Origin: Bolinopsis microptera
Lineage: Eukaryota > Ctenophora > Tentaculata > Lobata > Bolinopsidae
Reading direction: 5' to 3'
NCBI RefSeq assembly: GCF_026151205.1
Contig: NC_087075.1
Span: 13,715,628-13,779,627 of the forward strand
DNA length: 64,000 nucleotides
In this document: positions 8,101 to 62,217 of the stretch, piece after piece
Position numbering within the stretch: position 1 is the stretch's first letter
How the letters are laid out: each line of letters opens with the position of its first letter
Notes under the pieces: model-generated
Told to the model about the DNA's origin: nothing
Seen by the model: the letters and a program-made list of their open reading frames with translations, nothing else
Databases searched by the model: none
Translations under genes and position numbers: made by a program

Positions 8101-11100
8101 CTAATGTTGCAGGCAGTGTTTACGGAGGAGCCCCAGCTAGCCAGGTGGGAGGATTCCCAGCAGTGCTGGAGGACTGATGGGTTTGAAGAGGTTAACTTTG
8201 ATGATATTAATGGGTCTATCTCCTTCAAGTCACAGTTTATTGGTCCCATCTGTACCTTCCAGGTGAGTTGGTAATTGGGAGGTAATTGGGAAGTAATTGA
8301 TATACATTCAATGATTAAAAATGATTGAGTTCCAATCATTGTCCAGTAATCAGGAAAGTTGTTTTCATAGCAATAATATTGGCAAATATTTCATGTTTCT
8401 CCTCTCTGGTGTACCACGAATATTGCTTTTAAAGCTGTCATTCTATCGAATCGCTTTCCAGTTTCATTTGGTTTGTCAACCACTTTAAATTAAAACCAAG
8501 TATATGTAACAATAGTTAATTATCTAATAATGTGGCTGGAGAGCAATTGAACAATCGTGGTTTTCGCATGTTCTTGACAAGTAACAACTGGCTTTTTTCT
8601 TTATATATCTCTGACATTATAATTTATCATGAATAGTAAGCTATGAACACGAAGTGCATCGCATCAATTTGAAGCGATTGTCGAATTTAAAGTTGCAATT
8701 ATAAAACTTCTTTTCCCTATACCAAACGCAAGGAAGTTATTCCATTAGGTCTAATTAAGCATTCATGGCATGGTCTTTAATTCATTGAAGTGTTAATATG
8801 CAAACAAGAGTCGATAAACATAGTATCTCTGTCGGAGAATGATGTTGTTTTCTTACTTTGACCACCAAAGTCACTCTTTCATAATATTTGTTCAGTAGCG
8901 CGCGAAAATACAAATTTAATAAAAGTATGTATTATTTTGCGCGTTGCTAGGGTAACCCATCTTTACATCTTGTCGATCGAAATTGTGGGATAATTTATTG
9001 CAAGGCTCAACCGATTAACAATTTTCAGAATTAATCATCACCTATAGACAGCATGAGAGTATGCCCTGCCATCTCGTCGTCTCGAAGTGATAATAACGAT
9101 TAACAAAACGTTAAGTTAAAAGTTCCCATCCCACATCGAGATTTCGGACGTTAGCCATAAGTGCAGGGTTTAGATAAGACCACCTGTGCAGTGATTATCA
9201 AAAAATGTAGTCGTACGAATCCGGTGATCTGGATTGGGGCTCCTATAAAAGTCTGGCAACTAAGCATAGTGTCAGCACTAAATTATTTGATGGTTGGCAA
9301 GCCATAGTTCTAGATAGACTAAAATCTAAGATTTTTTCTTCCAAAATATTTTGTAAACGGAATAAGACGGTTATTTCCACGGAGTCTGAGGACCTCAATG
9401 TCCTAAAAGAACATTTTATTATGACTAGCGTAGACAAAGCGAGTAATAATGTTTCCTTTGTCTGTAAGAAATATTATTTAGATAATTTACTGCATGAACT
9501 TTCTTCCACTAGTACTTATCAAGTTTCCACAGATTCTGAAGAAGATATTGTAAGAAGGCATGTGCAATTTTTCCTGAGGTTTAAGATTCCGGTAAATGAT
9601 CTTTCGGTACCATTTATGCACATGTTGCCGAAATTCCATAAACCGACCTTGGATTTCAGGTACATTGCTGCTGGGGTTAAATCTTCCACAAAAGTTCTTT
9701 CTAAGATCCTGAGTGTGGTATTTAAACTGCTTGGTACTACTTTAAAATACCAAGATAATTTTAATTTTAAGTTCTTAGACGCTTCTGGTTATTGGATTGT
9801 CAACAATAAAGACAAAGTGACATCTAACTTAAATTATCTTAATAATACCTGCTCAGCTAAGTCAGTATATTCGTTTGATTTTAAGAAACTTTACACCAAC
9901 CTTCCCCATGATAAACTTATTGAGAAGTTATCATCTTTGATTAAATTATGTTTTGAGGAAAAGAAACTTGATTTTATCAAAATCAACGACCAGTTTCGGG
10001 CAAGATGGTCGGGAGTTAATAAGACTAAGTGGTCTTTTACATGTAGTGACCTGATAGATATGTTTAAATTCTTAATGGATAATATTTATGTTAAGTTTCG
10101 AGGTGTGATCTACAGGCAGGTAATTGGTATCCCAATGGGATGTGATTGTGCCTCTCAGGTCGCTGACCTATTTCTATACTGGTACGAGCATGATTACATT
10201 ACATTGCAAGTTAAAAACAAGAACCCTGTGGTTCACACTTTGAAACATGCTAGTCGATATATTGATGATTTAACTACCCCTAATATCAGTCATAAGACTG
10301 TCGATATAATTTGCAAGGATATTTACCCAGTAGAGTTGAAGATTGTAGTCACAAACTCTAGCATTCTATCTACGACTTTTCTTGATTTAGACATTTATAT
10401 TACGAACAGTCGTTTCTACACTAAATTATATGACAAACGACGTGATTTCAGTTTTAAAGTCGTCACTTTTCCTAACCTTAAATCCAACGTACCTGTGAAA
10501 CCTTCATATGGAATATTTGTAGGTGAACTATATAGGATATGCAAATCCTCCTCTGCCCTCAGTAGTGAATGAATTTATTCATGAGGTTAAATTATTAATC
10601 GATAAACTGATCACCCAGAATTTTGAACGGAAAATCTTACATAGACATCTTAAATTATTTATTAACAGTCAACCAGCGTGCATCTTTAAACACTGGCACA
10701 ATTTCACAGTAAATGACTTCATGTAATTATATTGTGTGTGAGGCCAAACCTTGTAATTCCTTATGCATGTTACCTCGTCCGTGATCTATTCACTTCCCCC
10801 TTTGATCGTTTTGGAACAGTTTTATATCACGTTAACGATTCTTTGGCAGTTTATTATTTAGCTTTCTAGCAGTATATATTTTGTTTTCTATATTCTTTCA
10901 GACTTTTACTTAAGTCTAGTTATACATTACTTTATCATATTTTATCGAACTAAGGTGTAGTATTGCCAGATCCCAGTTCATTTTGTAACGGAGTTTTATA
11001 TTAACAGGAAACGATGTAACAGAGTCGATATATTTTAATGTTGCCATGGGGTGGCAAGTCCCCATACATCGTGGTCCGGTAGTTTCACTGCGTCTTAATA

Positions 11101-31478: not shown

Positions 31479-32002
31479 TCTTCAGTTGTCCTATTCGTCC
31501 TAGGAGATTTGCCGCGCCCCGTTATGATAAATACGCTCAATAAATAGGGTTATTAATTGGGATGGTGAGACAATGTCCTGTTATCATGATATTATTGTTG
31601 GTATCAGCTCAATTGTTCGTAATTTATTGTACGGCCAGTAATGATATTGATGGTTGTTTAGACACCAAATTCATTAATTTGGGTATGAGTACGAGTACTT
31701 GAGTACTCGAAGCTGTCCTCAGTGCGTAGTGAGAGCTTGATTAGTTGTTGGAGCTCTCCTATCTGAGCGTCAAAAGTTTGGTGGCTGACTTTTGATTGTT
31801 GGTCAGATGCTGCCTTCTTTGAATGAATTGTTTTTACAAGTACCAACATCCCCAGCTGAGCTCGTGATTATAACCAGCTTCTGTTTTAAAAGTGGCAAAA
31901 ATGTTAATTAAAAACATTGTTCAATAATCTCTGTGACTAACATTTCTCTAACCTGCATAGCAAAAGACAAAAAGTTTTAACAAACAATAAAGACAGAGGA
32001 AG

Positions 32003-32720
32003 ATGAAGTGTTTTGTAGTTATGGTTACCCTGCTCGTTCTCTCACAGTCAGCTTCTCTCAACTCCAGAGGTTAGTTACGTTTAAACTTTCGGTAACTACT
32101 AGTAACCATGGTTACTTAGTGGTTACTTAGTGGTTACTTATTGGTTACTTAGTGGTTACTTAGTGGTCCAATATTAACAAATTTAATCGGGAAAATTTAA
32201 TTGCCAAAAATTTCTGAATCGATTCCACAAGTACACAATGACGAACGTCTCCAGCCGATATCAAACGCGAGTTGTTCATCACTGATATGAATATTGCCTC
32301 CTAGTCCTAATCTCCCAATAACTTTAATCTACTTCAGAGTCAATGGACGAAACGATAATGGAAAATGTTGAACAAGAGGTTGAAGCTGGAGAGGTTGCAG
32401 AGGAAGAGGCACGAGTTTACAAGGGATATAACGGTGGTAAGTCAACTGTCATCCTTATTACTTTATTAGTACATATTGAGTTTTTTTCTTTCTTAAACTG
32501 CGTGCAGTCTTTTCAAGATTTTTTTTTGCCTAAAATATTCCGGCGCGATAAAGTTCTCGCATTTCGCTAATTTTAGCTGGAAAGTTTAAAAGTTTCTTTT
32601 TGTAATCCCGAATCAGTTTGACATCATTAAGTATGAACTGTTAAATTATACGTAGAACATACTTTATACAAGTTGGATTTAACTTGGCTTTTTTCAGGAA
32701 ACCGTGTCTGGTACGGATAG
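32003..32720 (+). CDS. VWYamide-type neuropeptide precursor (3 exons, 62 aa)
   Basis: Exons 32003-32069, 32338-32436 and 32698-32720 join in frame (189 nt, GT-AG at both introns). The product starts MKCFVVMVTLLVLSQSASLN, a typical signal peptide with cleavage likely after about residue 17. It continues with an acidic spacer rich in Glu and ends ...GYNGGNRVWYG before TAG. The final Gly is the standard substrate for C-terminal amidation. Cleavage at the Arg before VWY would release VWYamide; cleavage at earlier Arg or Lys would give longer forms ending the same way. A short VWYamide peptide is known from ctenophores, to my recollection from mass spectrometry, and single C-terminal copies are usual in their precursors. 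This small gene escapes ORF scans because the peptide itself sits in a 23-nt coding exon. A dispersed CCAAT/TATA block lies 2.7 kb upstream. Structure is strong; identity rests on the terminal motif. Confidence 0.82.
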
Positions 32721-33583
32721 AGAATAAGATGGCCGGTGTCAAAACCCTTCACCATGACATTGTCATGGTGATATCACCCGTCATCACGAGAACAATTTGA
32801 TGACAAAACTTGGTCCTTGCTTCCAACCCAACGCCACTGCTTTGAACGAGCGAGGAAATTTCTTTTTTTGATCTTGACTTCGAACAGTTTTAATTCTAGT
32901 TTATCAATTTGAGATGATTTCCTTAACAATTCAAGGACAGTGTCATAGCTAAGCTTGGACAAAGACGGTTTTTAAAATTTTTAATGTGTTTAATCGTTGA
33001 CCTTAAGGTAAAAGTCGTAACCTTTTTTTCGTGCAGGGCGTTCATCTTAAACACGATTAATACAATTTATCAAGTTTCATACAAGATGCAAGAGTATCGT
33101 TTCTTTTTTTCGAGATGTAAGCTAATTTGAAGTTATCAATTTTGCAGCATGTATCTGCAAGTGTGGAAAATTGATTCAAGCTAAATACCAGTATTGAGAA
33201 GTCGACCTGTAAATGTGACAAGTTTTTTCTTCTTCATGTTTGGTAAAAATGAATTTTCATCAGTACTAAATTATAAAAATGGAAAAGAAAGTAAAAATTA
33301 CAGCCATAATGTTGACAATTTATGTTGGAATAATTTATAAAATGTAATATTAAGAAAGTAAACCGAATACTTGAAGTGTTGCCAATAAAATACTAATTAT
33401 TAATTAAAATGATATGATACGAGTGCCTACGTGGTGAAACTAAAAATTTCAGCAGAAATTTAAGAAGTAATTAATAGAACAGAATAAAATAAAAGCCTTT
33501 AAATTGTAGCTTATACTCTTATAATAGTTGACATGACCTGCAGTCCTACGGTATTATTCCTTGTATTCCACGCATTCCCCTCG
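32721..33583. other. 3' UTR and intergenic DNA after the neuropeptide gene
   Basis: No further exon recognised. AATAAA-type signals occur near 33387 and 33486. The segment ends at the tail of the RTE-like LINE. Confidence 0.4.
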
Positions 33584-33736: not shown

Positions 33737-36700
33737 TCATGCGATTTGCATACTTCTCCATTTAACTCTATTTTGAGCGATTAAAGTTAAATAGTTTAAA
33801 TCACATAAATTATTTAACGATAATTTTCGAACACTAAGGTCGTGTAGAATCAGTGAGAAAAGGTTTGACTGCGGTCTTCCACGCCGCCCTTGGAGCTGTA
33901 AGGTGTTAACAGCAAAAACAAGCGACGAATAGGCTGGACCATCTGTAGGCCCACGCAGTACATGTCCGAGCATCCTCCAACGACTACGAGCCACTTTAGC
34001 TGACAATGGTTCGCTATTGCAGCGTTTATACAAGTTCTTGTTGGAAATGATGTGAGGGTATTTGTAATTCAAAATTGATCGCAGATGACGTCTGTGAGCA
34101 ATATCTAGTTTTTCCAATACTGATTTAGGGGCAGCCCAGCAAGATGAATTGTACATTAAAACGGATACTACCAGAGCCTCATACAACAGAAGCCTCTTGC
34201 TCAGAGGGATCTTATGGTTCCAAGCTTTCTTGTATTTGTTAAACGCGGCATATCCCAGACATATCCTTCTAGAGATGTCCTCCTTACTACAAAGCATGGA
34301 GCCAAGCGTGATACTCTTTCTCCAGAGCTCGTTCCCTGCAATTGGCTTACCCTGATCGTCTTTAGCTCCCTTTTCAGCTAAGTACACATGAGTGAAATCA
34401 GTTTTGTCTTCGTTAACGAAGAGATTCCAATCTTTAAGGACTTCTGTTGCAATAGGCAACAGCTCCCTCAAATTGTCTTCATCTTCATCATTGAAGTCGA
34501 TATCATCAGCATACTCACTGTCAAGTGGAAGACCAATATCGGTGATAGGTGGGTTAGGCCTATTCATTGCAGTTTCAAGCCTGTTACGGAGGTCACGCAA
34601 GGCACCCGCTAAGACAAGTGTGAACAAACATCCAGACAGACAGTCACCTTGGAATGCACCGAGAAAACTCTGGAATTCAGCAGACAGTGTACCGTTGATG
34701 TTGACTTTGAGCTTGGTGTTGGAAAGCAAAAGTCTTACCAAACGGACTTCGTCATCATCACAGCCACACTCAACAAGAAGATCGAGGATGGTAGATCGTC
34801 GTATAGTGTCAAAGGCACTAGACATATCGATCCCCATACGATGGTATTCCCACCTCTTCCTCTGGACAACTGATAACATCACACGCTGGCACCATACAAT
34901 GTCAGCACATGATCTACCCTGCTTGTAAGCACATTGCCATGGACCAGTGAAGGCATTGACTTTATTCTCAATTCTCTTCAAGGTTGCCATTGAAAGAATC
35001 TTTCTAACAGCATTTGAGAGAGTGAGGGGTCGTAGATTCTTCACTGGACCAATGGGCTTATTTGGCTTCTGTAAGGGGGTAATGTTTGCCTGTCCAATGG
35101 GGTCAAGGTAGGAATTGGTCTCGAAGCTTCTATTGATAATGTCTGCAAAACGTCTGTGTACTGATCCAGTAGAATACTTGAGAAGCTCGTTAGGAATTTC
35201 ATCTGGGCCGTTAGCTCGACCATTTTTGAGACTTCTGGCAGCTGATCCGATTTCTTCACTAGTGAATGGCTTAACTAGTGGGCGAGGAGGTCCTACAAAA
35301 GGTTCTAAAGGTGCTTCATCACGAGTAAGTTGTTGCTCAAGGTACTTAGCAACTACGGCAGCTTTACCAGTGTCTGTTGCAATATTGCACCCTTTCTCAT
35401 CATGAACACCAATACTAGAAGGGGCTTTAGGTAAGTTCAGGGTTCGAACAGCTTCAAACATTTTCTTACTATCTGTTGTTGAACTGATGGTATTACAGAT
35501 AGCATCAGCAGCAGCTGATCGTATGTTAGAAAGTCTCTGCTTGATCTGATTGGTGAGGCAGTTAATAGATGATCTAAGTGAGGTTCTGTCTAAAGACTGG
35601 TTATCATTAAGCTGCTGTCTCAACAAGTAACGCTGGCTAGATAAGTTTTTCACCTCATCATCGTCGCTGCGATTACGTTTCCTGTGTCTGATGACACCAA
35701 TTGACGATTTTGCAGCATCCTTTATGGACTCAAGTAAGCCATTCAAGTCTGAATTTGGATCCAGAGCAGAAACAGTGTTACTTAAGTTATCATCTAAGGA
35801 TTGACGATATTTCACCTGAATGGTGGGGTTCGAGGTGAGTTCAGAGGTGTTGAACTTTAAGGATGACTTGGAGTGGCGTTTATAGCAAAGACAGATGTCC
35901 TTAAAGTCTACTCTAGTGACAACAAATCTGTGATCAGAGTATGTCAAAGTGCCTGCATAAGATCTAGAATCTTGTAGCATTGGCTTCGGCCTACTCCGAC
36001 ACAGGATGAAATCGATCTGAGAATAGACCGGGATCGTCTTTTTACTATTTCGCCCGGCACTCCAGTCCTTCCTCCAGCCAGTGTAGGTGGTCGTATGTCG
36101 AGCAGGATGATAAAAACCAGTGTTGGAGGCAAAGAGGTCAAATTCTGATAACAAGTCTAACAAGTTTTCCCCCATATCGTTGCGCAAACCCATACCATGT
36201 TTACCCATGAAACGACCAAAACCAAAGTCCTTATCTGAAGTAGTCATTTTTCCCAAATTTGAATTAAAATCCCCCAAAACAAATATCTCAACATTAGCAG
36301 GGACGTTTAGAGCGTCCCTAACTTGGCCGTAGAAATTAATCAACAGTTGTTGATCATTTTCTGCAAGTTTCTTGTGTGGCCCATATACATTGACCACCCT
36401 ACATTTGATAAATTTTCTTGATTTTGTAGGGAGTTCTAGGTCCAAAAGGCTTACTCTATCACTGATACTGTTCCAGCATACCACATAGTCAATAAATCGG
36501 GGACTGATAACAAAACCGAGTCCATAGTGCCGGCCATTTTTCTGCTCAAACAATAAGAGTTTGTATCCGTTGCTAAGACTGCAAGAATCCGGTTTTACAA
36601 CCTTAGTCTCCTGAATAGCGCAGATATCTATGCCGTACCGTACACAATCGGTACCCAGTTGCTCCCGTTTGCTGTGGATGTCGTCTGGATCATCACAAGA

Positions 36701-36835
36701 ACCGAGGCCACGTATGTTAAAGGTGGCGAAGCTGATGAGGAGTGTAGCAAACAGGGATCGTCCTGTAGCTGAGGTAAACATTACGGAGGGCGATGTTGTC
36801 GTCTCTCCGCCGCTGGCGTTACCCATACGGTCCAT
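33737..36835 (-). CDS. RTE-like LINE ORF2: AP endonuclease + reverse transcriptase (1032 aa)
   Basis: This is a single open frame for target-primed reverse transcription. The AP-type endonuclease spans about residues 35-310: ATFNIRGLG, IQETK near 76, the catalytic block LGDFNSN near 188, and TYSDHR near 299. The reverse transcriptase spans about 520-810: KNGRANGPDEIPNELLK near 540, QKPNKP, the GIDMSSAFDTI finger/palm block near 668, GAFQGDCLSGCLFTLVL near 727, YADD at 775-778, and NEDKTDF. The C-terminal part has the SRWRMLGHVLR motif of RTE-type proteins. The length of about 1000 aa and the lack of a zinc knuckle also fit RTE. All catalytic residues seen are present and no stop interrupts the frame, so this copy may be recent. 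The Proto2 group is an alternative clade placement. Upstream, a 26-codon frame ends in TAG immediately before this ATG. Confidence 0.9.
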   Translation of the reverse strand: MDRMGNASGGETTTSPSVMFTSATGRSLFATLLISFATFNIRGLGSCDDPDDIHSKREQLGTDCVRYGIDICAIQETKVVKPDSCSLSNGYKLLLFEQKNGRHYGLGFVISPRFIDYVVCWNSISDRVSLLDLELPTKSRKFIKCRVVNVYGPHKKLAENDQQLLINFYGQVRDALNVPANVEIFVLGDFNSNLGKMTTSDKDFGFGRFMGKHGMGLRNDMGENLLDLLSEFDLFASNTGFYHPARHTTTYTGWRKDWSAGRNSKKTIPVYSQIDFILCRSRPKPMLQDSRSYAGTLTYSDHRFVVTRVDFKDICLCYKRHSKSSLKFNTSELTSNPTIQVKYRQSLDDNLSNTVSALDPNSDLNGLLESIKDAAKSSIGVIRHRKRNRSDDDEVKNLSSQRYLLRQQLNDNQSLDRTSLRSSINCLTNQIKQRLSNIRSAAADAICNTISSTTDSKKMFEAVRTLNLPKAPSSIGVHDEKGCNIATDTGKAAVVAKYLEQQLTRDEAPLEPFVGPPRPLVKPFTSEEIGSAARSLKNGRANGPDEIPNELLKYSTGSVHRRFADIINRSFETNSYLDPIGQANITPLQKPNKPIGPVKNLRPLTLSNAVRKILSMATLKRIENKVNAFTGPWQCAYKQGRSCADIVWCQRVMLSVVQRKRWEYHRMGIDMSSAFDTIRRSTILDLLVECGCDDDEVRLVRLLLSNTKLKVNINGTLSAEFQSFLGAFQGDCLSGCLFTLVLAGALRDLRNRLETAMNRPNPPITDIGLPLDSEYADDIDFNDEDEDNLRELLPIATEVLKDWNLFVNEDKTDFTHVYLAEKGAKDDQGKPIAGNELWRKSITLGSMLCSKEDISRRICLGYAAFNKYKKAWNHKIPLSKRLLLYEALVVSVLMYNSSCWAAPKSVLEKLDIAHRRHLRSILNYKYPHIISNKNLYKRCNSEPLSAKVARSRWRMLGHVLRGPTDGPAYSSLVFAVNTLQLQGRRGRPQSNLFSLILHDLSVRKLSLNNLCDLNYLTLIAQNRVKWRSMQIA

Positions 36836-43700: not shown

Positions 43701-45379
43701 TGTATAGCTTCAGCCAGATTGTACAAAGCAATGTCGTTGAAGAATAAAACCTTGAAACACTGCGTTTTTAGCTTCAAACTTTGATAAACTGCTTCTTCTA
43801 AACTGCTTCTAAACGGTTTCTTCTAAACAGCTTCTAAACGGCTTCTAAACAGTTTCTAAACGGCTTCCAAACGGTTTCTAAACGGTTTCTAAACGGCTTC
43901 CAAACGGTTTCTAAACGGTTTCTAAACAATCTTCTTTCTGTGACTCAGACGACTACACGAGGTGTGAGCAGTGTGACCAGTTCCTGCCAGCTTGTCACGT
44001 TCACTTGGTCGGAGTGGACGCTCTGGAGGTCGGAGAGGAGATGATGAAGAGGTACAACCTGAACAAACTCAGGGAGGAAACCTATCTGGAAACATCGTGA
44101 GTTTGAGGAATTGTTTTGTGTGCAGCCATGCGGGTACATTCTTTTTCCTTAATTAATCAATTTTATAATTATTTTAAGTTTAAAACCAAAATATTCCATT
44201 TTTATTGATTGACGATGCTGTTCTCGGAACACTAACCACTGTTCTTCTGTCTCTTGTTGTGTAATTCCAACCCCTTTGTTAATACCTTAGATGTGTGCTG
44301 GACGGTATACCTAAGATCCACAGTAGTGTGTCAACCTACAACCATCACGTCAGAAAGGAACCGTCTTATAGGCCCTTCAATGTGACATTTGTAAAACAAG
44401 GTGATGTCAGTTCATTTTATACTTTTTATAAGCTGTTTATACAAGGTGATCTCAGTTCATTTTATACTTTTTATAAGCTGTTTATACAAGGTGATCTCAG
44501 TTCATTTTATACTTTTTATAAGCTGTTTATACAAGGTGATCTCAGTTCATTTTATACTTTTTATAAGCTGTTTATACAAGGTGATCTCAGTTCATTTTAT
44601 ACTTTTTATAAGCTGTTTATACAAGGTGATCTCAGTTCATTTTATACTTTTTATAAGCTGTTTATACAAGGTGATCTCAGTTCATTTTATACTTTTTATA
44701 AGCTGTTTATACAAGGTGATCTCAGTTCATTTTATACTTTTTATAAGCTGTTTATACAAGGTGATCTCAGTTCATTTTATACTTTTTATAAGCTGTTTAT
44801 ACAAGGTGATCTCAGTTCATTTTATACTTTTTATAAGCTGTTTATACAAGGTGATCTCAGTTCATTTTATACTTTTTATAAGCTGTTTATACAAGGTGAT
44901 CTCAGTTCATTTTATACTTTTTATAAGCTGTTTATACAAGGTGATCTCAGTTCATTTTATACTTTTTATAAGCTGTTTATACAAGGTGATCTCAGTTCAT
45001 TTTATACTTTTTATAAGCTGTTTATACAAGGTGATCTCAGTTCATTTTATACTTTTTATAAGCTGTTTATACAAGGTTTGTTCCTTTGGTAATTAATGTG
45101 AAGTACTCGTTATTACAGATTAGTGAAGATATATAATGAGTTTTGAGATGAGCTTATAGTTAGCCAAACTCAACTTTTTGCAAGCAGAGCTTATAAAAAA
45201 AGCAAGTTTACTGTAAATATTTCAGGATCGGGGACAGAAAATCGCTGGAACAACATCTGAACAATCATTTCACGGAACACAATCTCCTGTACGACTCCTC
45301 CGCATCTTTCCCAAGCAAAAACAGGGTTACAATTCGAGAAAACGGAGCTGATTCTCATTCGTACAATCTTATATCGTGA
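40720..45379 (+). CDS. C2H2-like zinc finger protein with a coding 15-aa tandem repeat (partial, 5' exons unknown)
   Basis: Exons 40720-40842, 41222-41333, 41628-41736, 43949-44096, 44291-45088 and 45226-45379 join in one frame (480 codons, then TGA). Finger 1 has C-x2-C-x12-H-x3-H spacing (CLQCRRRCNTIEELEL-H-RRW-H). Finger 2 is CSICDKTFTTFEIFKSH + VRKH. Further pairs are CKYCEEKF (incomplete finger) and CEQCDQFLPACHVH. Exon 5 continues through a 45-bp x 15 array encoding GDLSSFYTFYKLFIQ. Using the donor after the array (CTTTG|GTAATT at 45088) restores the phase of the last exon, which reads WIGDRKSLEQHLNNH and onward; the donor before the array (44400) would instead run into a stop after 11 codons. 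A foldback element sits in the third intron (41737-43948). Upstream exons are not identified. Function unknown beyond probable nucleic-acid binding. Confidence 0.72.
41750..41862. repeat. Short tandem repeat (AATTATCTAGA)n
   Basis: Several imperfect 11-bp units of AATTATCTAGA lie just after the exon ending at 41736, in the intron that also holds foldback copy B. Confidence 0.85.
41969..42883. mobile_element. Foldback element, family 2, copy B (0.9 kb)
   Basis: The terminal inverted repeat TTCACCCTGATTTTTTGTG (41969) returns as CACAAAAAAATCAGGGTGAA (ending 42883). The arms closely match copy A (16583-17884) along most of their length, but this copy lacks part of the central and right-arm sequence. 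C, T and then 24 C follow the right end, as with copy A. It lies in the third intron of the zinc finger gene. Confidence 0.88.
42884..43948. other. Remainder of the zinc finger intron, with C-runs and a 12-bp repeat
   Basis: C-runs lie at 42886-42909 and near 43185-43203. Just before the next exon, 43795-43925, a 12-bp unit of the type TTCTAAACGGCT recurs about ten times with variants. Confidence 0.7.
44401..45075 (+). repeat. 45-bp minisatellite, exactly 15 units, in frame within an exon
   Basis: The unit is GTGATCTCAGTTCATTTTAT + ACTTTTTATAAGCTGTTTAT + ACAAG. Fourteen units are identical and only the first differs (GATGTC for GATCTC), so the expansion is recent or actively homogenised. Two forward frames are open throughout. 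Each unit starts with a donor-like CAAG|GTGATC and contains an acceptor-like CTCAG. Confidence 0.97.
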
Positions 45380-56911: not shown

Positions 56912-59900
56912 TCAAGTGGAAGACGATGTTGGTGTCTTTTTCGGATTTCTGATGCGATGACAGCTGCTGAGAAACTTGCCCAGTTCTTCTATGTGGGCTG
57001 AATCCATCATGTCTTTGTAGTTCCTTTGAAGTAAAAGCCCTTTGAGGTCATCTGAGAGAGAAGATCGTACTGAGTGGTACATGGGGCACTCAGTAAGGCA
57101 GTGTTCCTCGTCTTCAATAATCGTGCCTTCAAAGAAGGGAAGGTATTCGAAGCCGAGAACGTGATCCCTATCGCAGCAGAATCTGCATGCTCTTGGCCAT
57201 ACTCCGGCCTCCTTCGTGTAACGCCCTCGTTCTATCATCAGGTCGTGGCTGCTTGAGCGGATTTTAGCTGTATTCGTTCGGAATTGCCTGCTCTTCAGAT
57301 TGAGGTACTGCTCTTCTCCAAATTCCTCCTTGATTTGGTTGTAGAACTGCATCTTGGTTTGCGATCCCAGATCCACCCTCCAGTCACTGATAAAGACATC
57401 CCTCATGGTGCCATGAGCTGCTTCTGTTTCATAATGAGCCACAGAGCTAAGTTTCTCGTACCAGGAGAGGTTAAGATTTTTCTGTTCCTGAAACGCTTGA
57501 GATACTAAAAAATTTACACTGTTCATCTCAGAAGAAGCTCTGGAAAGTCTTCCAAAGTATCTGAGGCATTGTGGCAGAACTGAGAGGGCCCAGGGCATCC
57601 TTCCGGTATCCCCGTAACAGAAGTTGTTGTTAGTTTTCTTGTGCACACCCAGTACCCATTTCAGCATTTTGAGGTGTGTTGTCTCAAGACTGTCTTTTGC
57701 TGCAACTTTTGATAGGTTGTGTCTTTGGCTGGGTTCACGCGCCATTTCTTTCATGAGGTGAGTCGAGGGTAGCCATATCTGACAGGCGTAAGTTGCTACC
57801 GGTTTCACCAGACAGTCAATTAGCTTTAGCATGGTTTTGGTGGTCAGAGCTCTGGTGTCTACCATGCGTTTTATCGAAAAGAATGCTCGAAGCGCCTTCT
57901 TCCTAAGTTCGTTCATGGCGCATTTAAAAGATCCATTGAGACTGAGCTGGATACCTAGATAGCAGTAGGACCTTGTTGGAGAGATGTCGAGCTGTCCAAG
58001 CTTGAACCCGTACGAGCAGTTTAGCACCCGCGAGCTTGAGTTGAAGACCATTATTTTAGTCTTATCAATGTTGATAGATAGCTCCCATTTGCTTGCAAAT
58101 TCATTTAGGCAGTCAAGCTCTTTCTGAAGGCTTTGGTGGTCGAGAGCTAAAAGGATGAGATCGTCGGCCCAGAGCAGGTGGTTGACCGGGAAGCCATTAA
58201 GTTCAGGGACAGAGAGATCTTCTAGGGCTGCTAGATAGATGGAGAGGTCGTAGATGTATATTTTAAACAATTCAGGAGACATTGGATGCCCTTGCTCTGT
58301 TCCAATGGTGACATCAATGGTCTCCGATAGTTTTTGGATCAGTTTGATGCGGGTCACCGAGTTGCTGTACATGTTCTTAAGGCAAGCGAAGAAGTTCCCT
58401 CCGATACCAAGGTGATTGAGTTTATACATGAGTGCTTCTCTGCACACCGTATCGAACGCTTTCCGGTAGTCAACAAAACAAGCAAACACTCTCTTTTTGA
58501 GCTTTTTCGTGTATTTCTCAATGATTGTGGTAATTGTAAGGATGTGATCCGAGCACTGTGCACCAGCTCTGAAGCCAAGTTGGTGGGGGAAATCGGGGCA
58601 GATAACTTTGCGGAAGTCGATAAGTCTTTCAAGGAGAAGAGAAGCAAATAGCTTCCCTAGACAGCTTCCAACAGTTATTGCCCTATAGTTGTCAGGGTTC
58701 TGTTTGTCGCCCTTCTTGTGGAGAGGGGTGGTTATCGAACAATTCCATGGGTAAGTCCCCTGTTCCAGGCAGCCGTTGAACAACTTGAGAAGAACTTTCC
58801 TTAGGCAAAGTTTGGAGTTCTTGAGCATCTCGTTCGATATTAGGTCCAGTGATACGCTCTTGTTGTTTTTGAGTTTGTTGATCACCTTTTCAAGCTCTTG
58901 TAGAGTGAACTCCATGTTAAGATTTTCCACTTCAGTTGGTAGGTCAGGGTGGCTGCTCCCATCATTGCTTGCGTTGTGGGCTTGAAGTTCACGGTGGGAT
59001 GGATCCTTGCACTTTTGGTTGTAGAGGTCGTTGAAGAATTTGTGAAAAGCAAATAGGTCGTACAGATCGAACGTCTCAGGATCTCTACAGGAGGACGAGA
59101 GATCTTTCAGAGCAGACCAGTTGATGTCATTGCCATTGTTTATTTTCTCGTTCAGTTGAAAGAGATATGCGCCTTTTTTAGATCGAACTTGAACCCTGTA
59201 TTCCTTTTTTCGGAGGTAAAACTTAGCCCGAGTAGGTTCCACTAGCATGGGATCAATGTAGGGGTTGTTCTTTACTCTTTCGATCTTGCAAACTTGACGT
59301 TTTGCCTTTCTGCAGTCCCAATCGAACCATTTGTTTTTGTTAGTGTGAAGACGGCCACTTTTTTGGGTAGTGACCTGGCTGGCTAGGTTAATGTAGGTTG
59401 TAATCACAGAGTCATTGTATTTTCGAATGTCTTCGGGGCAGGTGATGTCATTTGCTAGGAGCGATTCGACCTTCTGCATGAATTGGGCATCATTCTGGGC
59501 CGACTTGAACTTTTCTGATGTACCAAACCCAGTGCTAGTGTCTTTGGTCCACTTGAAGGGCTTCGGCACTGGTGCTAGTTTCCGTTCACGTTCTTTATAG
59601 AGGTTGTCATCAAGAAGATTCACCCCATGGTTTGTGGTGAGGGCGGTTGATATCGGTCTGTGGTCTGAGTAAGGTGTGATATCGCCCACATGGAAGAACC
59701 TAACCCGATGGTGGATATCTCGTGAGACACAGATGTAATCAACAGTGCTGGCTCCGTGACGTTGAATGCATGTATGGCTACCGAAAATGTCTCCAATAGT
59801 CCTTCCATTAAGAATTATCATCCCTGCTGTTTGGAGAAGCTCAATGAACGGTTTGCCATTCGAATTCAAAGTTCGGTCCTGATTGTTTCTTGGTGTCAAG

Positions 59901-60607
59901 GCTGTTATGAATTGAGGAGGGTCGAGATCGACATGTATATTCCTAGATTCGCAGGGAATAAGAAAATCTTTCAGAGTACCGGTCCGTGCGTTCATATCTC
60001 CAAGTATGGCGGCATCTTCTGTGTCGGGAATCCTGGATAGGCACTCCTCAAGTTGTTCGCAGGTAGTGATGTATTCCTCGGTATTCGAACGTATACGTTT
60101 TTTATACGAACCGTGTGCTGGCGAGTCGTATACATTGATAAGGTTTAGGTCCTTGTCAAGATTAAAGTATTTGGCTCTTAGCTTGACGATGAGTATGTCG
60201 TCACAATCTGGAACGTGGACTCTAACAGCTCCAGCTGCTAGGTGTTTATGAATCGCCGTACATACACCGCCTGAGTTTGTTCCTGTCCTGTTAGCATTGA
60301 AGCATTTGAAGTCACGTAAAGAAACTTGCCCTTTAGTTTCTTGCAAGCAGATAACGTCGTGACTGTTAAGGAGCTTCTGAACTTCATCGATTTCAAATTT
60401 GATACCTTCAAACTTGTCACGCTGATGGTTGATGTTCCAGCTCATCAGCCTAAGGCAATTGCTTGTGTCCCGGTTTTTACTCATCTTTGAAACGGTTCGA
60501 GCTGCGTTTTTGACGAGGATTTCCATCGTGGCTCTGGTGAGGAATGCGCATCGTCTTCTTAAGTCCTTCACGAAGGCTGACGTAGAGCATTTTTTCGCCT
60601 CTGTCAT
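56912..60607 (-). CDS. CR1/L2-like LINE ORF2: AP endonuclease + reverse transcriptase + zinc knuckle (1231 aa)
   Basis: The endonuclease spans about residues 52-325: LRLMSWNINHQRD, ICLQETK near 87, ILGDMNARTG near 201, VDYICVSRD near 289, and PYSDHRPIS near 312. The reverse transcriptase spans about 560-850: TTPLHKKGDKQNPDNYRAIT near 626, FVDYRKAFDTV near 711, GTEQGHPMSPELF near 769, catalytic WADD at 813-816, and SINIDKTKIMVF near 850. Near the C-terminus, CRFCCDRD...EEHCLTECPMYHSVR forms a CCHC-type knuckle as in CR1/L2/jockey-group proteins. The Met at 60607 lies inside ORF1; a later Met near residue 28 or 42 could be the true start if translation is by reinitiation. No stop or frameshift is seen, so the copy may be young. 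The exact clade needs a tree. Confidence 0.92.
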   Translation of the reverse strand: MTEAKKCSTSAFVKDLRRRCAFLTRATMEILVKNAARTVSKMSKNRDTSNCLRLMSWNINHQRDKFEGIKFEIDEVQKLLNSHDVICLQETKGQVSLRDFKCFNANRTGTNSGGVCTAIHKHLAAGAVRVHVPDCDDILIVKLRAKYFNLDKDLNLINVYDSPAHGSYKKRIRSNTEEYITTCEQLEECLSRIPDTEDAAILGDMNARTGTLKDFLIPCESRNIHVDLDPPQFITALTPRNNQDRTLNSNGKPFIELLQTAGMIILNGRTIGDIFGSHTCIQRHGASTVDYICVSRDIHHRVRFFHVGDITPYSDHRPISTALTTNHGVNLLDDNLYKERERKLAPVPKPFKWTKDTSTGFGTSEKFKSAQNDAQFMQKVESLLANDITCPEDIRKYNDSVITTYINLASQVTTQKSGRLHTNKNKWFDWDCRKAKRQVCKIERVKNNPYIDPMLVEPTRAKFYLRKKEYRVQVRSKKGAYLFQLNEKINNGNDINWSALKDLSSSCRDPETFDLYDLFAFHKFFNDLYNQKCKDPSHRELQAHNASNDGSSHPDLPTEVENLNMEFTLQELEKVINKLKNNKSVSLDLISNEMLKNSKLCLRKVLLKLFNGCLEQGTYPWNCSITTPLHKKGDKQNPDNYRAITVGSCLGKLFASLLLERLIDFRKVICPDFPHQLGFRAGAQCSDHILTITTIIEKYTKKLKKRVFACFVDYRKAFDTVCREALMYKLNHLGIGGNFFACLKNMYSNSVTRIKLIQKLSETIDVTIGTEQGHPMSPELFKIYIYDLSIYLAALEDLSVPELNGFPVNHLLWADDLILLALDHQSLQKELDCLNEFASKWELSINIDKTKIMVFNSSSRVLNCSYGFKLGQLDISPTRSYCYLGIQLSLNGSFKCAMNELRKKALRAFFSIKRMVDTRALTTKTMLKLIDCLVKPVATYACQIWLPSTHLMKEMAREPSQRHNLSKVAAKDSLETTHLKMLKWVLGVHKKTNNNFCYGDTGRMPWALSVLPQCLRYFGRLSRASSEMNSVNFLVSQAFQEQKNLNLSWYEKLSSVAHYETEAAHGTMRDVFISDWRVDLGSQTKMQFYNQIKEEFGEEQYLNLKSRQFRTNTAKIRSSSHDLMIERGRYTKEAGVWPRACRFCCDRDHVLGFEYLPFFEGTIIEDEEHCLTECPMYHSVRSSLSDDLKGLLLQRNYKDMMDSAHIEELGKFLSSCHRIRNPKKTPTSSST

Positions 60608-61958
60608 TTAGGGTGAATCCAGTGTTGATTGAATAAATGTTCTGGTTGCCGACCAGGTCGTTAGCAAACGTGAATATGCGTGAACGAGCGGTTTCGCTTT
60701 GTCTGTGGAACCAGCTAACATTGCTTTTAATTTCGTTGTTAACAGCTTTGATTCGCTCGTTCATTTTCTTGTCATTAGAGGTTGGAATGAAAAGTGAAAA
60801 ACATATCTGAGCTTTGCAGGTCTCCAGGAGATACTCTGCGAGTTCGTGGATAGCTCCAGATGGGATACATTTCCTCTTCGTAAGGTCGTTGATACCCAGG
60901 TGAACGTAAATACAGTCTGGTCGTAGCTTATTCAACTTCTCGTTGAGCTGTTTTCGTTTCTTTGCTAGGTTTTCGAGACTTGATGCCCCGAATTGGTGCA
61001 CATTGAATTGAGAACTGAAACTACGTGGATTGAACTTGTCAAAGTTACTATCGTGTATGAGAAGTACCGTGTGCCTACGATAGATATGAGAGTTCCTGGT
61101 TCCAGTTCCTGTGCCTGGTCCGACTTCCCGAGATTGTGAAGTTGAGGATGGTACATGATTTTCACGCCGATGAGGCATGCGGCTATCATTTAGAGAATTG
61201 TCTGGGCGCTCTTCTTGAGCTTGTTCGTTCTGGACAGTTGTCATGCGGCCACCATTTTGAGACCCGTCTCGTCCCCCAACAGTGGGTGAGTTGGTGCGTT
61301 TATTGCCTCTGCTGCCGTTCTGTAGCCGCTCACTTTGGCTCGGTTTTCTCTCACGGTGGTTTTTGTTGTTACGTTTGTCTGCTTTTGTAAACGGATTTCC
61401 GCTGTTAGCTGCCGATATTGAGGCCCAGGTAGGGGTTCCTGTTGCATTCGGACCATTACTTTGAACGTCCCGGGTAGCAGTGTCAGGTTTGCTTATATGC
61501 GTTACAACGGGCTGTACGTCATTTGCAAGGACAATTGCTACATTCTCATGGTTGGTCTCAAGGGCCTCAATTCTTGTCCTGTTAGATGAGCTTACAGTGT
61601 CAAGTGACTGAAAAGCGTTGTTGAACTCGTTCCTAAGCGAATCGATTGAGGCGATCGTTTCATTCTTAGCAGAACTTACCGTGCTTCTAAGAGCTTTCTT
61701 CAGTTTATCTTGCTCGAGCTCTAGATCTTCAAATCGCCTCTTGGAGGTGCTACTCGCTTTTTCGAACGTTTTGACGCTGTCTGCGACCTCGGCTCTAACT
61801 TCCTGTAGTGATTGAATCTCTCTGTTGGCTATGATCTCGAGAGTTCTATTTTGTTCATCAACTGCATCCCTGAGCAAATTGAGGTCAACCCTAAGTTGTC
61901 TCACTTTGTTCTCCAACGGGCTAACCTTGCAACGTATAATTACCAAAAAACCGATCAA
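60477..61958 (-). CDS. CR1-type LINE ORF1: coiled coil + SGNH esterase domain (493 aa)
   Basis: Residues about 12-140 are heptad-rich (ENKVRQLRVDLNLLRDAVDE and onward), and about 160-290 form a low-complexity, Arg/Ser/Asn-rich linker. Residues about 294-465 make an SGNH/GDSL-type hydrolase: RRHTVLLIHDSNFDKF (nucleophile Ser block), CIYVHLGINDLT (GxND block), then FIPTSNDKKMNERIKAVNNE and FTLNDRGEKML. Esterase-bearing ORF1 proteins are known from CR1-group non-LTR elements. The C-terminal 43 codons overlap the start of ORF2. Some expected catalytic positions (the DxxH block) are not clear by eye, so enzymatic activity is uncertain. Confidence 0.85.
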   Translation of the reverse strand: MIGFLVIIRCKVSPLENKVRQLRVDLNLLRDAVDEQNRTLEIIANREIQSLQEVRAEVADSVKTFEKASSTSKRRFEDLELEQDKLKKALRSTVSSAKNETIASIDSLRNEFNNAFQSLDTVSSSNRTRIEALETNHENVAIVLANDVQPVVTHISKPDTATRDVQSNGPNATGTPTWASISAANSGNPFTKADKRNNKNHRERKPSQSERLQNGSRGNKRTNSPTVGGRDGSQNGGRMTTVQNEQAQEERPDNSLNDSRMPHRRENHVPSSTSQSREVGPGTGTGTRNSHIYRRHTVLLIHDSNFDKFNPRSFSSQFNVHQFGASSLENLAKKRKQLNEKLNKLRPDCIYVHLGINDLTKRKCIPSGAIHELAEYLLETCKAQICFSLFIPTSNDKKMNERIKAVNNEIKSNVSWFHRQSETARSRIFTFANDLVGNQNIYSINTGFTLNDRGEKMLYVSLREGLKKTMRIPHQSHDGNPRQKRSSNRFKDE

Positions 61959-62217
61959 TATGCCGTTCCAACAATCTTTTCACGTGCATGTGCGCACCCC
62001 AACCAAGGATGCTAATTACCTATGTAGCGTATCTTATAACTTTATAAACGTACGGCACACGAATACCGTACGTATTTCTCAAAAGTGTTTATATGCGACA
62101 TGCGTACTTCGTTCAAATCTTTCATTTCGACCATCGATTCATTAAATATGAGCATTTAGCAGTAACACGCTAAAAACGCGAGTTTATAGATATAAATAAT
62201 ATGTTACTGTAGTACAA

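Follow-up and report, generated by a model that had tools for sequence, protein, structure and literature searches.

The gene at 32003-32720 on the plus strand of the window, the 64,000-nucleotide stretch C4:13,715,628-13,779,627 analysed here, almost certainly encodes the precursor of the neuropeptide VWYa in a ctenophore of the genus Bolinopsis, most likely B. microptera, and we hold the processing and function scheme given below, taken as a whole, with the same confidence. As part of this best explanation, there is very little doubt that the gene is the counterpart of the VWYa precursor of B. mikado and of ML02736a of Mnemiopsis. Three segments, 32003-32069, 32338-32436 and 32698-32720, when joined in phase encode a 62-residue product, MKCFVVMVTLLVLSQSASLNSRESMDETIMENVEQEVEAGEVAEEEARVYKGYNGGNRVWYG, followed by a stop, and the 15 encoded residues before its final Gly, ARVYKGYNGGNRVWY, are identical (15/15) to the B. 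mikado VWYa neuropeptide as given in PMC9525235. The comparison with B. mikado, a different species, was made at the level of the mature peptide, and the likeness to Mnemiopsis leidyi ML02736a is by the published VWYa assignment (PMC9525235). The initial annotation had put forward these three exons, joined in phase into a 62-residue protein, and the coordinates, phases, GT/AG borders and product are confirmed. It had read them as encoding the precursor of VWYamide, with a signal peptide and an amidation Gly; this reading is right as to the precursor, to a leader that is hydrophobic and to the Gly, which a stop follows. The features of the gene are as follows.

32003..32069, plus strand: coding part of exon 1, with the leader MKCFVVMVTLLVLSQSASLNSR, ending in phase 1 (translation).
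32070..32337, plus strand: intron 1, 268 nt, GT...AG, containing a GGTTACTTAGT-like minisatellite (sequence and site scores).
32338..32436, plus strand: exon 2, 99 nt, with the acidic spacer ESMDETIMENVEQEVEAGEVAEEE, nine peptide residues and base 1 of the tenth codon.
32409..32436, plus strand: start of the mature peptide, ARVYKGYNG, with base 1 of the Gly codon that follows (matches the published ARVYKGYNGGNRVWYa).
32437..32697, plus strand: intron 2, 261 nt, phase 1, interrupting the mature peptide (sequence and site scores).
32698..32720, plus strand: exon 3, coding portion of 23 nt, with the rest of the split Gly codon, NRVWY, Gly and stop (translation; the terminal-exon pattern is unique in the genome).
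32749..32771, plus strand: perfect 11-bp inverted repeat, TCACCATGACA/TGTCATGGTGA, in the presumed 3' UTR, 28 nt past the stop.

Both introns are GT-AG and in phase 1. The leader reads as a hydrophobic VVMVTLLVL stretch after MKCF, and it passes the hydrophobic N-terminus filter of the chain search described below. In the translated precursor AEEE immediately precedes A47. The nine peptide residues of exon 2 occupy 32409-32435, the tenth codon is split as 32436|32698-32699, NRVWY ends at 32714, and the amide-donor Gly (32715-32717) is followed by the stop TAG (32718-32720). The precursor matched no Pfam family. Among solved structures, seven different sequences came within E 1, the best of them, at E 0.011, being the chain Cake6, and we judged this to be chance.

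The nature of the mature peptide is where the initial annotation and the published data part. It had placed the active peptide wholly in the 23-nt segment, with VWY-amide as the product, which would put an Arg border, NR|VWY, at its N-terminus. The published peptide is ARVYKGYNGGNRVWY-amide, a 15-mer: exon 2 supplies nine residues, one Gly codon is split, and the 23-nt segment encodes five residues in full. On its N-terminal side it is bordered by acidic residues, EEE|A. Hayakawa et al. 2022 determined amidated peptides of B. mikado by mass spectrometry, VWYa being ARVYKGYNGGNRVWYa, and described acidic residues as major cleavage sites in that species; the legend of their Fig. 1e points out the signal peptide, the cleavage site, the peptide itself and the Gly that donates the amide in the B. 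mikado VWYa precursor (PMC9525235). That the active product is the tripeptide VWY-NH2, cut after NR and derived from the last exon alone, is very improbable: an Arg does precede VWY, neuropeptide precursors are often cut at basic sites, and there may be shorter forms, only one peptide having been synthesised where a precursor gave several (PMC9525235), but the same paper names VWYa as the 15-mer and finds the synthetic 15-mer active on larvae, its antigen, Cys-NRVWYamide, is longer than VWY, and the YKGY..GNR.W core recurs in the WTGa precursor, which suggests that a longer part of the peptide matters. The NRVWY of this antigen is encoded in the B. microptera window. A mass search for VWY-NH2 alone would target the wrong main product. 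It had also been expected that gene predictors would miss such a gene, an expectation at odds with the Mnemiopsis counterpart, which is the gene model ML02736a and had already been predicted as a precursor (PMC9525235). Overall the initial annotation is partly supported.

To return to the 15-residue VWYa as the product, its identity with the published peptide spans the exon 2/3 junction, and for this reason the gene stands above chance and the intron 2 junction is supported. The donor at 32437 was chosen over that at 32434 because the latter would give one Gly fewer than the published peptide has. The peptide identity bears on intron 2 alone, so that we infer splicing at this locus from the peptide match for intron 2 and from the frame and site scores for intron 1. 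By generic splice matrices, the donors at 32070 (GAG|GTTAGT) and 32437 (GTG|GTAAGT) rank 96 and 20 among the 3719 GT sites of the window, and the acceptors at 32337 and 32697 rank 298 and 10 among its 3547 AG sites. The intron 1 acceptor is thus of middling strength (298/3547), a point against the model. An acceptor-like sequence, TTTCTCTAACCTGCATAG, lies at 31943-31960, upstream of the start codon (rank 537/3547); it could be the end of a 5' UTR intron, a trans-splice acceptor, or nothing. The intron 1 minisatellite, built of GGTTACTTAGT-like units, covers 32109-32167, and similar stretches are found on C3, C6, C10 and C12, among others.

When both strands of the window were searched for three-exon chains with a hydrophobic N-terminus, one was found on the plus strand, the VWYa gene, and none on the minus strand; the thresholds were set post hoc, just under the weakest sites of the VWYa gene itself, and the matrices were generic, which makes this a mild control. 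The VWYG-stop ending was rejected as evidence by itself, since 41 matches to the degenerate pattern GTNTGGTAYGGNTRR were counted across the genome searched (264.65 Mb, 232 contigs) against 39 for the reversed pattern, a chance rate; nine of the 41 carry TGG at the stop position and 32 a true stop. That three open segments came together by chance, or that the copy is decayed and unexpressed, is more improbable still than the tripeptide, for even with VWYG-stop alone occurring at the chance rate, 15 residues spanning a splice junction agree without exception with a published peptide, the frame is intact, no other copies were found, and the chain is the sole one of its kind in the window. A genome protein search for a second copy of VWYa returned the gene's own two larger exons and one match at E 4.2, the 3' flank (32721-33430) matched itself alone in the genome, and the terminal-exon pattern had a single genome match, its own exon, with two for the reversed control. 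These copy searches score the best candidates and take exons separately, and a diverged or split relative could escape them.

Peptide and gene in close relatives are already in print, and to this extent the main finding is known. Mnemiopsis ML02736a is stated to encode VWYa, its precursor prediction coming from an earlier study (PMC9525235). In B. mikado, antibodies to Cys-NRVWYamide stain neurons in the subepithelial net, in the comb rows, in the apical organ and in the tentacles, and the synthetic VWYa 15-mer makes the oral epithelium expand and the body volume increase (PMC9525235). In Mnemiopsis some of the vesicles in the syncytial nerve net react with an ML02736a antibody (PMC7617566), a labelling also mentioned in PMC10730927, and in Vallicula a VWYa-positive net is kept (PMC10826244); expression of VWYa in the subepithelial nerve net is thus reported for B. 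mikado, Vallicula and Mnemiopsis (PMC9525235, PMC10826244, PMC7617566). The B. microptera assembly is described in PMC10232365, and the species is given as having 13 chromosomes and 38.5% GC (PMC11797021).

Taken together, these data suggest a scheme in which the three exons would be spliced in B. microptera, the leader would direct the VWYa precursor into the secretory path, a protease would cut after the acidic EEE run, and the C-terminal Gly would be converted to the amide by a PAM-type enzyme. The genome has five matches to Cu2_monoox_C, an amidating-enzyme domain, all of them over the cut-off, and this domain is not specific to PAM. The released 15-residue ARVYKGYNGGNRVWY-NH2 would be stored in vesicles within neurons of the subepithelial nerve net and elsewhere, and its release by volume transmission would lead to expansion of the oral epithelium, as predicted for B. 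microptera from the function in its relative.

We also sought four further B. mikado peptides in this genome, and relatives of three, NPWa, WTGa and FGLa, are encoded; with the VWYa peptide being that of B. mikado, the ctenophore origin proposed from the DNA alone is upheld. The loci of two of these precursors are as follows.

C13:11,681,249-11,684,293 (L014), minus strand: NPWa precursor, three exons (model).
C4:1,002,123-1,002,640 (L023:1022-1539): WTGa precursor, ending RGWTGG.

For NPWa, published from B. mikado as IGSDIKLVPGAGGNPWa (PMC9525235), the genome encodes IGSDIKLAPGGGNPWGRK followed by a stop according to our exon model, which started from a weak search match (E 0.353, 93% identity) that was then read by eye. 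By this model the precursor resembles that of VWYa in having three exons, an acidic spacer and a second intron of phase 1 inside the peptide: a leader exon and an acidic spacer exon precede a last coding segment of 53 nt, and intron 2 falls after peptide residue 1. The mature peptides of NPWa and VWYa have chance-level similarity (2,527 of 20,000 shuffles as good). An intron splits the peptide in two of the four precursors examined, VWYa and NPWa, a small sample, and its occurrence in both may be coincidence.

The WTGa pattern had 39 genome matches, the control 14, and a single identical 17-mer accounts for 32 of the 39. Eight of the matches became loci, two of which were translated (L016 and L023), and L023 is the gene; by the exon model (L023:1022-1124 + 1430-1539, C4 at about 1.0 Mb) its precursor is MKLFLSLVLLGLVAVISSESVESVEDNAELNANEESGSLRVKRAKFSMNNYKGYRQGNRGWTGGEMQEEE. 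The published WTGa antigen is RGWTGamide (PMC9525235), and the N-terminal cut of the peptide would lie after KR. For FGLa four genome matches were found against two in the control, and one of them (L025) reads QAFGLG in a leader-bearing frame. The single match to the RWFa pattern (control 0) reads GTRSWFG, which is not RWFa, and it was rejected.

We consider it probable, on the strength of the sequence comparisons, that VWYa and WTGa are paralogues from an old gene duplication in which the YKGYxxGNRxW core was kept and the C-terminus diverged. WTGa YKGYRQGNRGWTG and VWYa YKGYNGGNRVWYG are identical at 9 of 13 positions (BLOSUM62 score 52), a score reached by 1 of 20,000 shuffles; within the mature parts the count is 8/12, and in the ninth identity the donor Gly of VWYa stands opposite the final Gly of WTG. 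The mature peptides of WTGa and NPWa are alike at the level of chance (14,842/20,000 shuffles as good). For whole precursors, shuffles as good among 5,000 numbered 0 for VWYa-WTGa, 173 for VWYa-NPWa and 68 for WTGa-NPWa, and the latter two scores indicate that leader and acidic composition alone raise such scores. The YKGYxxGNR pattern has one match in the genome, WTGa, and none for the control; VWYa is missed by this contiguous pattern because its intron splits the peptide. The WTGa protein segment, searched against the genome, matches itself alone.

The WTGa precursor is like that of VWYa in its leader, in the phase-1 first intron after the leader and in the YKGY..GNR.W core, but unlike VWYa it has two coding exons (model), KR before the peptide, an unsplit peptide and six residues after the amide-donor Gly. 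Intron 1 follows the leader in phase 1 in both genes; the peptide-internal intron is found in VWYa alone, which speaks against kinship. The C-termini differ as well (RVWY-amide against RGWTG-amide), as does the stretch leading into the peptide, acidic EEE in VWYa and KR in WTGa. Also against kinship, noncoding similarity between the two genes is unsupported in the 3' UTR (100/300 shuffles as good) and upstream (229/300), and VWYa intron 2 compared with WTGa intron 1 gave nothing (291/300); intron 1 against intron 1 gave 6/300, on an A+T-rich stretch. The 3' UTR controls were 184/300 for VWYa-NPWa and 11/300 for WTGa-NPWa. Both VWYa and WTGa are reported in the B. mikado subepithelial nerve net (PMC9525235). 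A further point against kinship is that no WTGa was observed in the Vallicula nerve net (PMC10826244), so that the location shared in B. mikado is not general. A kinship of VWYa and WTGa is not stated in the available parts of the ctenophore literature on these peptides, Sachkova et al. 2021 (Mnemiopsis) and supplements aside, and the relation may be new.

The inverted repeat past the VWYa stop is one of three such perfect repeats in the window and may be unrelated to the gene. A hairpin also lies just past the WTGa stop (L023:1563-1592), with 13-nt arms that are 92% complementary and include TGACGTCA. For the first 100 nt past the stop, 15 of 400 random window stretches reached the folding energy of VWYa and 8 of 400 that of WTGa; the same test gave nothing for NPWa (335/400) and FGLa (174/400).

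Elsewhere in the window the following frames and repeats were found.

9211-10572, plus strand: 453-aa frame, weakly matched to reverse transcriptase at 24.2 bits, under the Pfam cut-off of 29.6.
33737-36835, minus strand: 1032-aa open frame of LINE type with endonuclease and reverse-transcriptase domains (Pfam).
44283-45096, plus strand: tandem repeat array open in two frames, with units such as GDLSSFYTFYKLFIQ.
56912-60607, minus strand: 1231-aa endonuclease/reverse-transcriptase frame (Pfam).
60477-61979, minus strand: 500-aa frame without a Pfam match, overlapping the 1231-aa frame and presumably the first frame of a LINE.

The LINE-type frame at 33737-36835 lies about 1 kb downstream of the VWYa gene, on the opposite strand.

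With this gene a functionally tested ctenophore neuropeptide is now placed on a chromosome-sized contig together with its exon structure, and the expected product is corrected from a tripeptide to an intron-split 15-mer. This matters for genome-based peptide searches, which would meet just NRVWYG in the terminal exon. Should VWYa and WTGa indeed be paralogues, the C-terminus, which is the antibody target, would have diverged while the core stayed, and related receptors may serve both peptides. The pair would then form a within-phylum peptide family for testing how receptors are paired and how the peptide repertoire of ctenophores grew, a question that bears on whether peptidergic neurons had a single origin.
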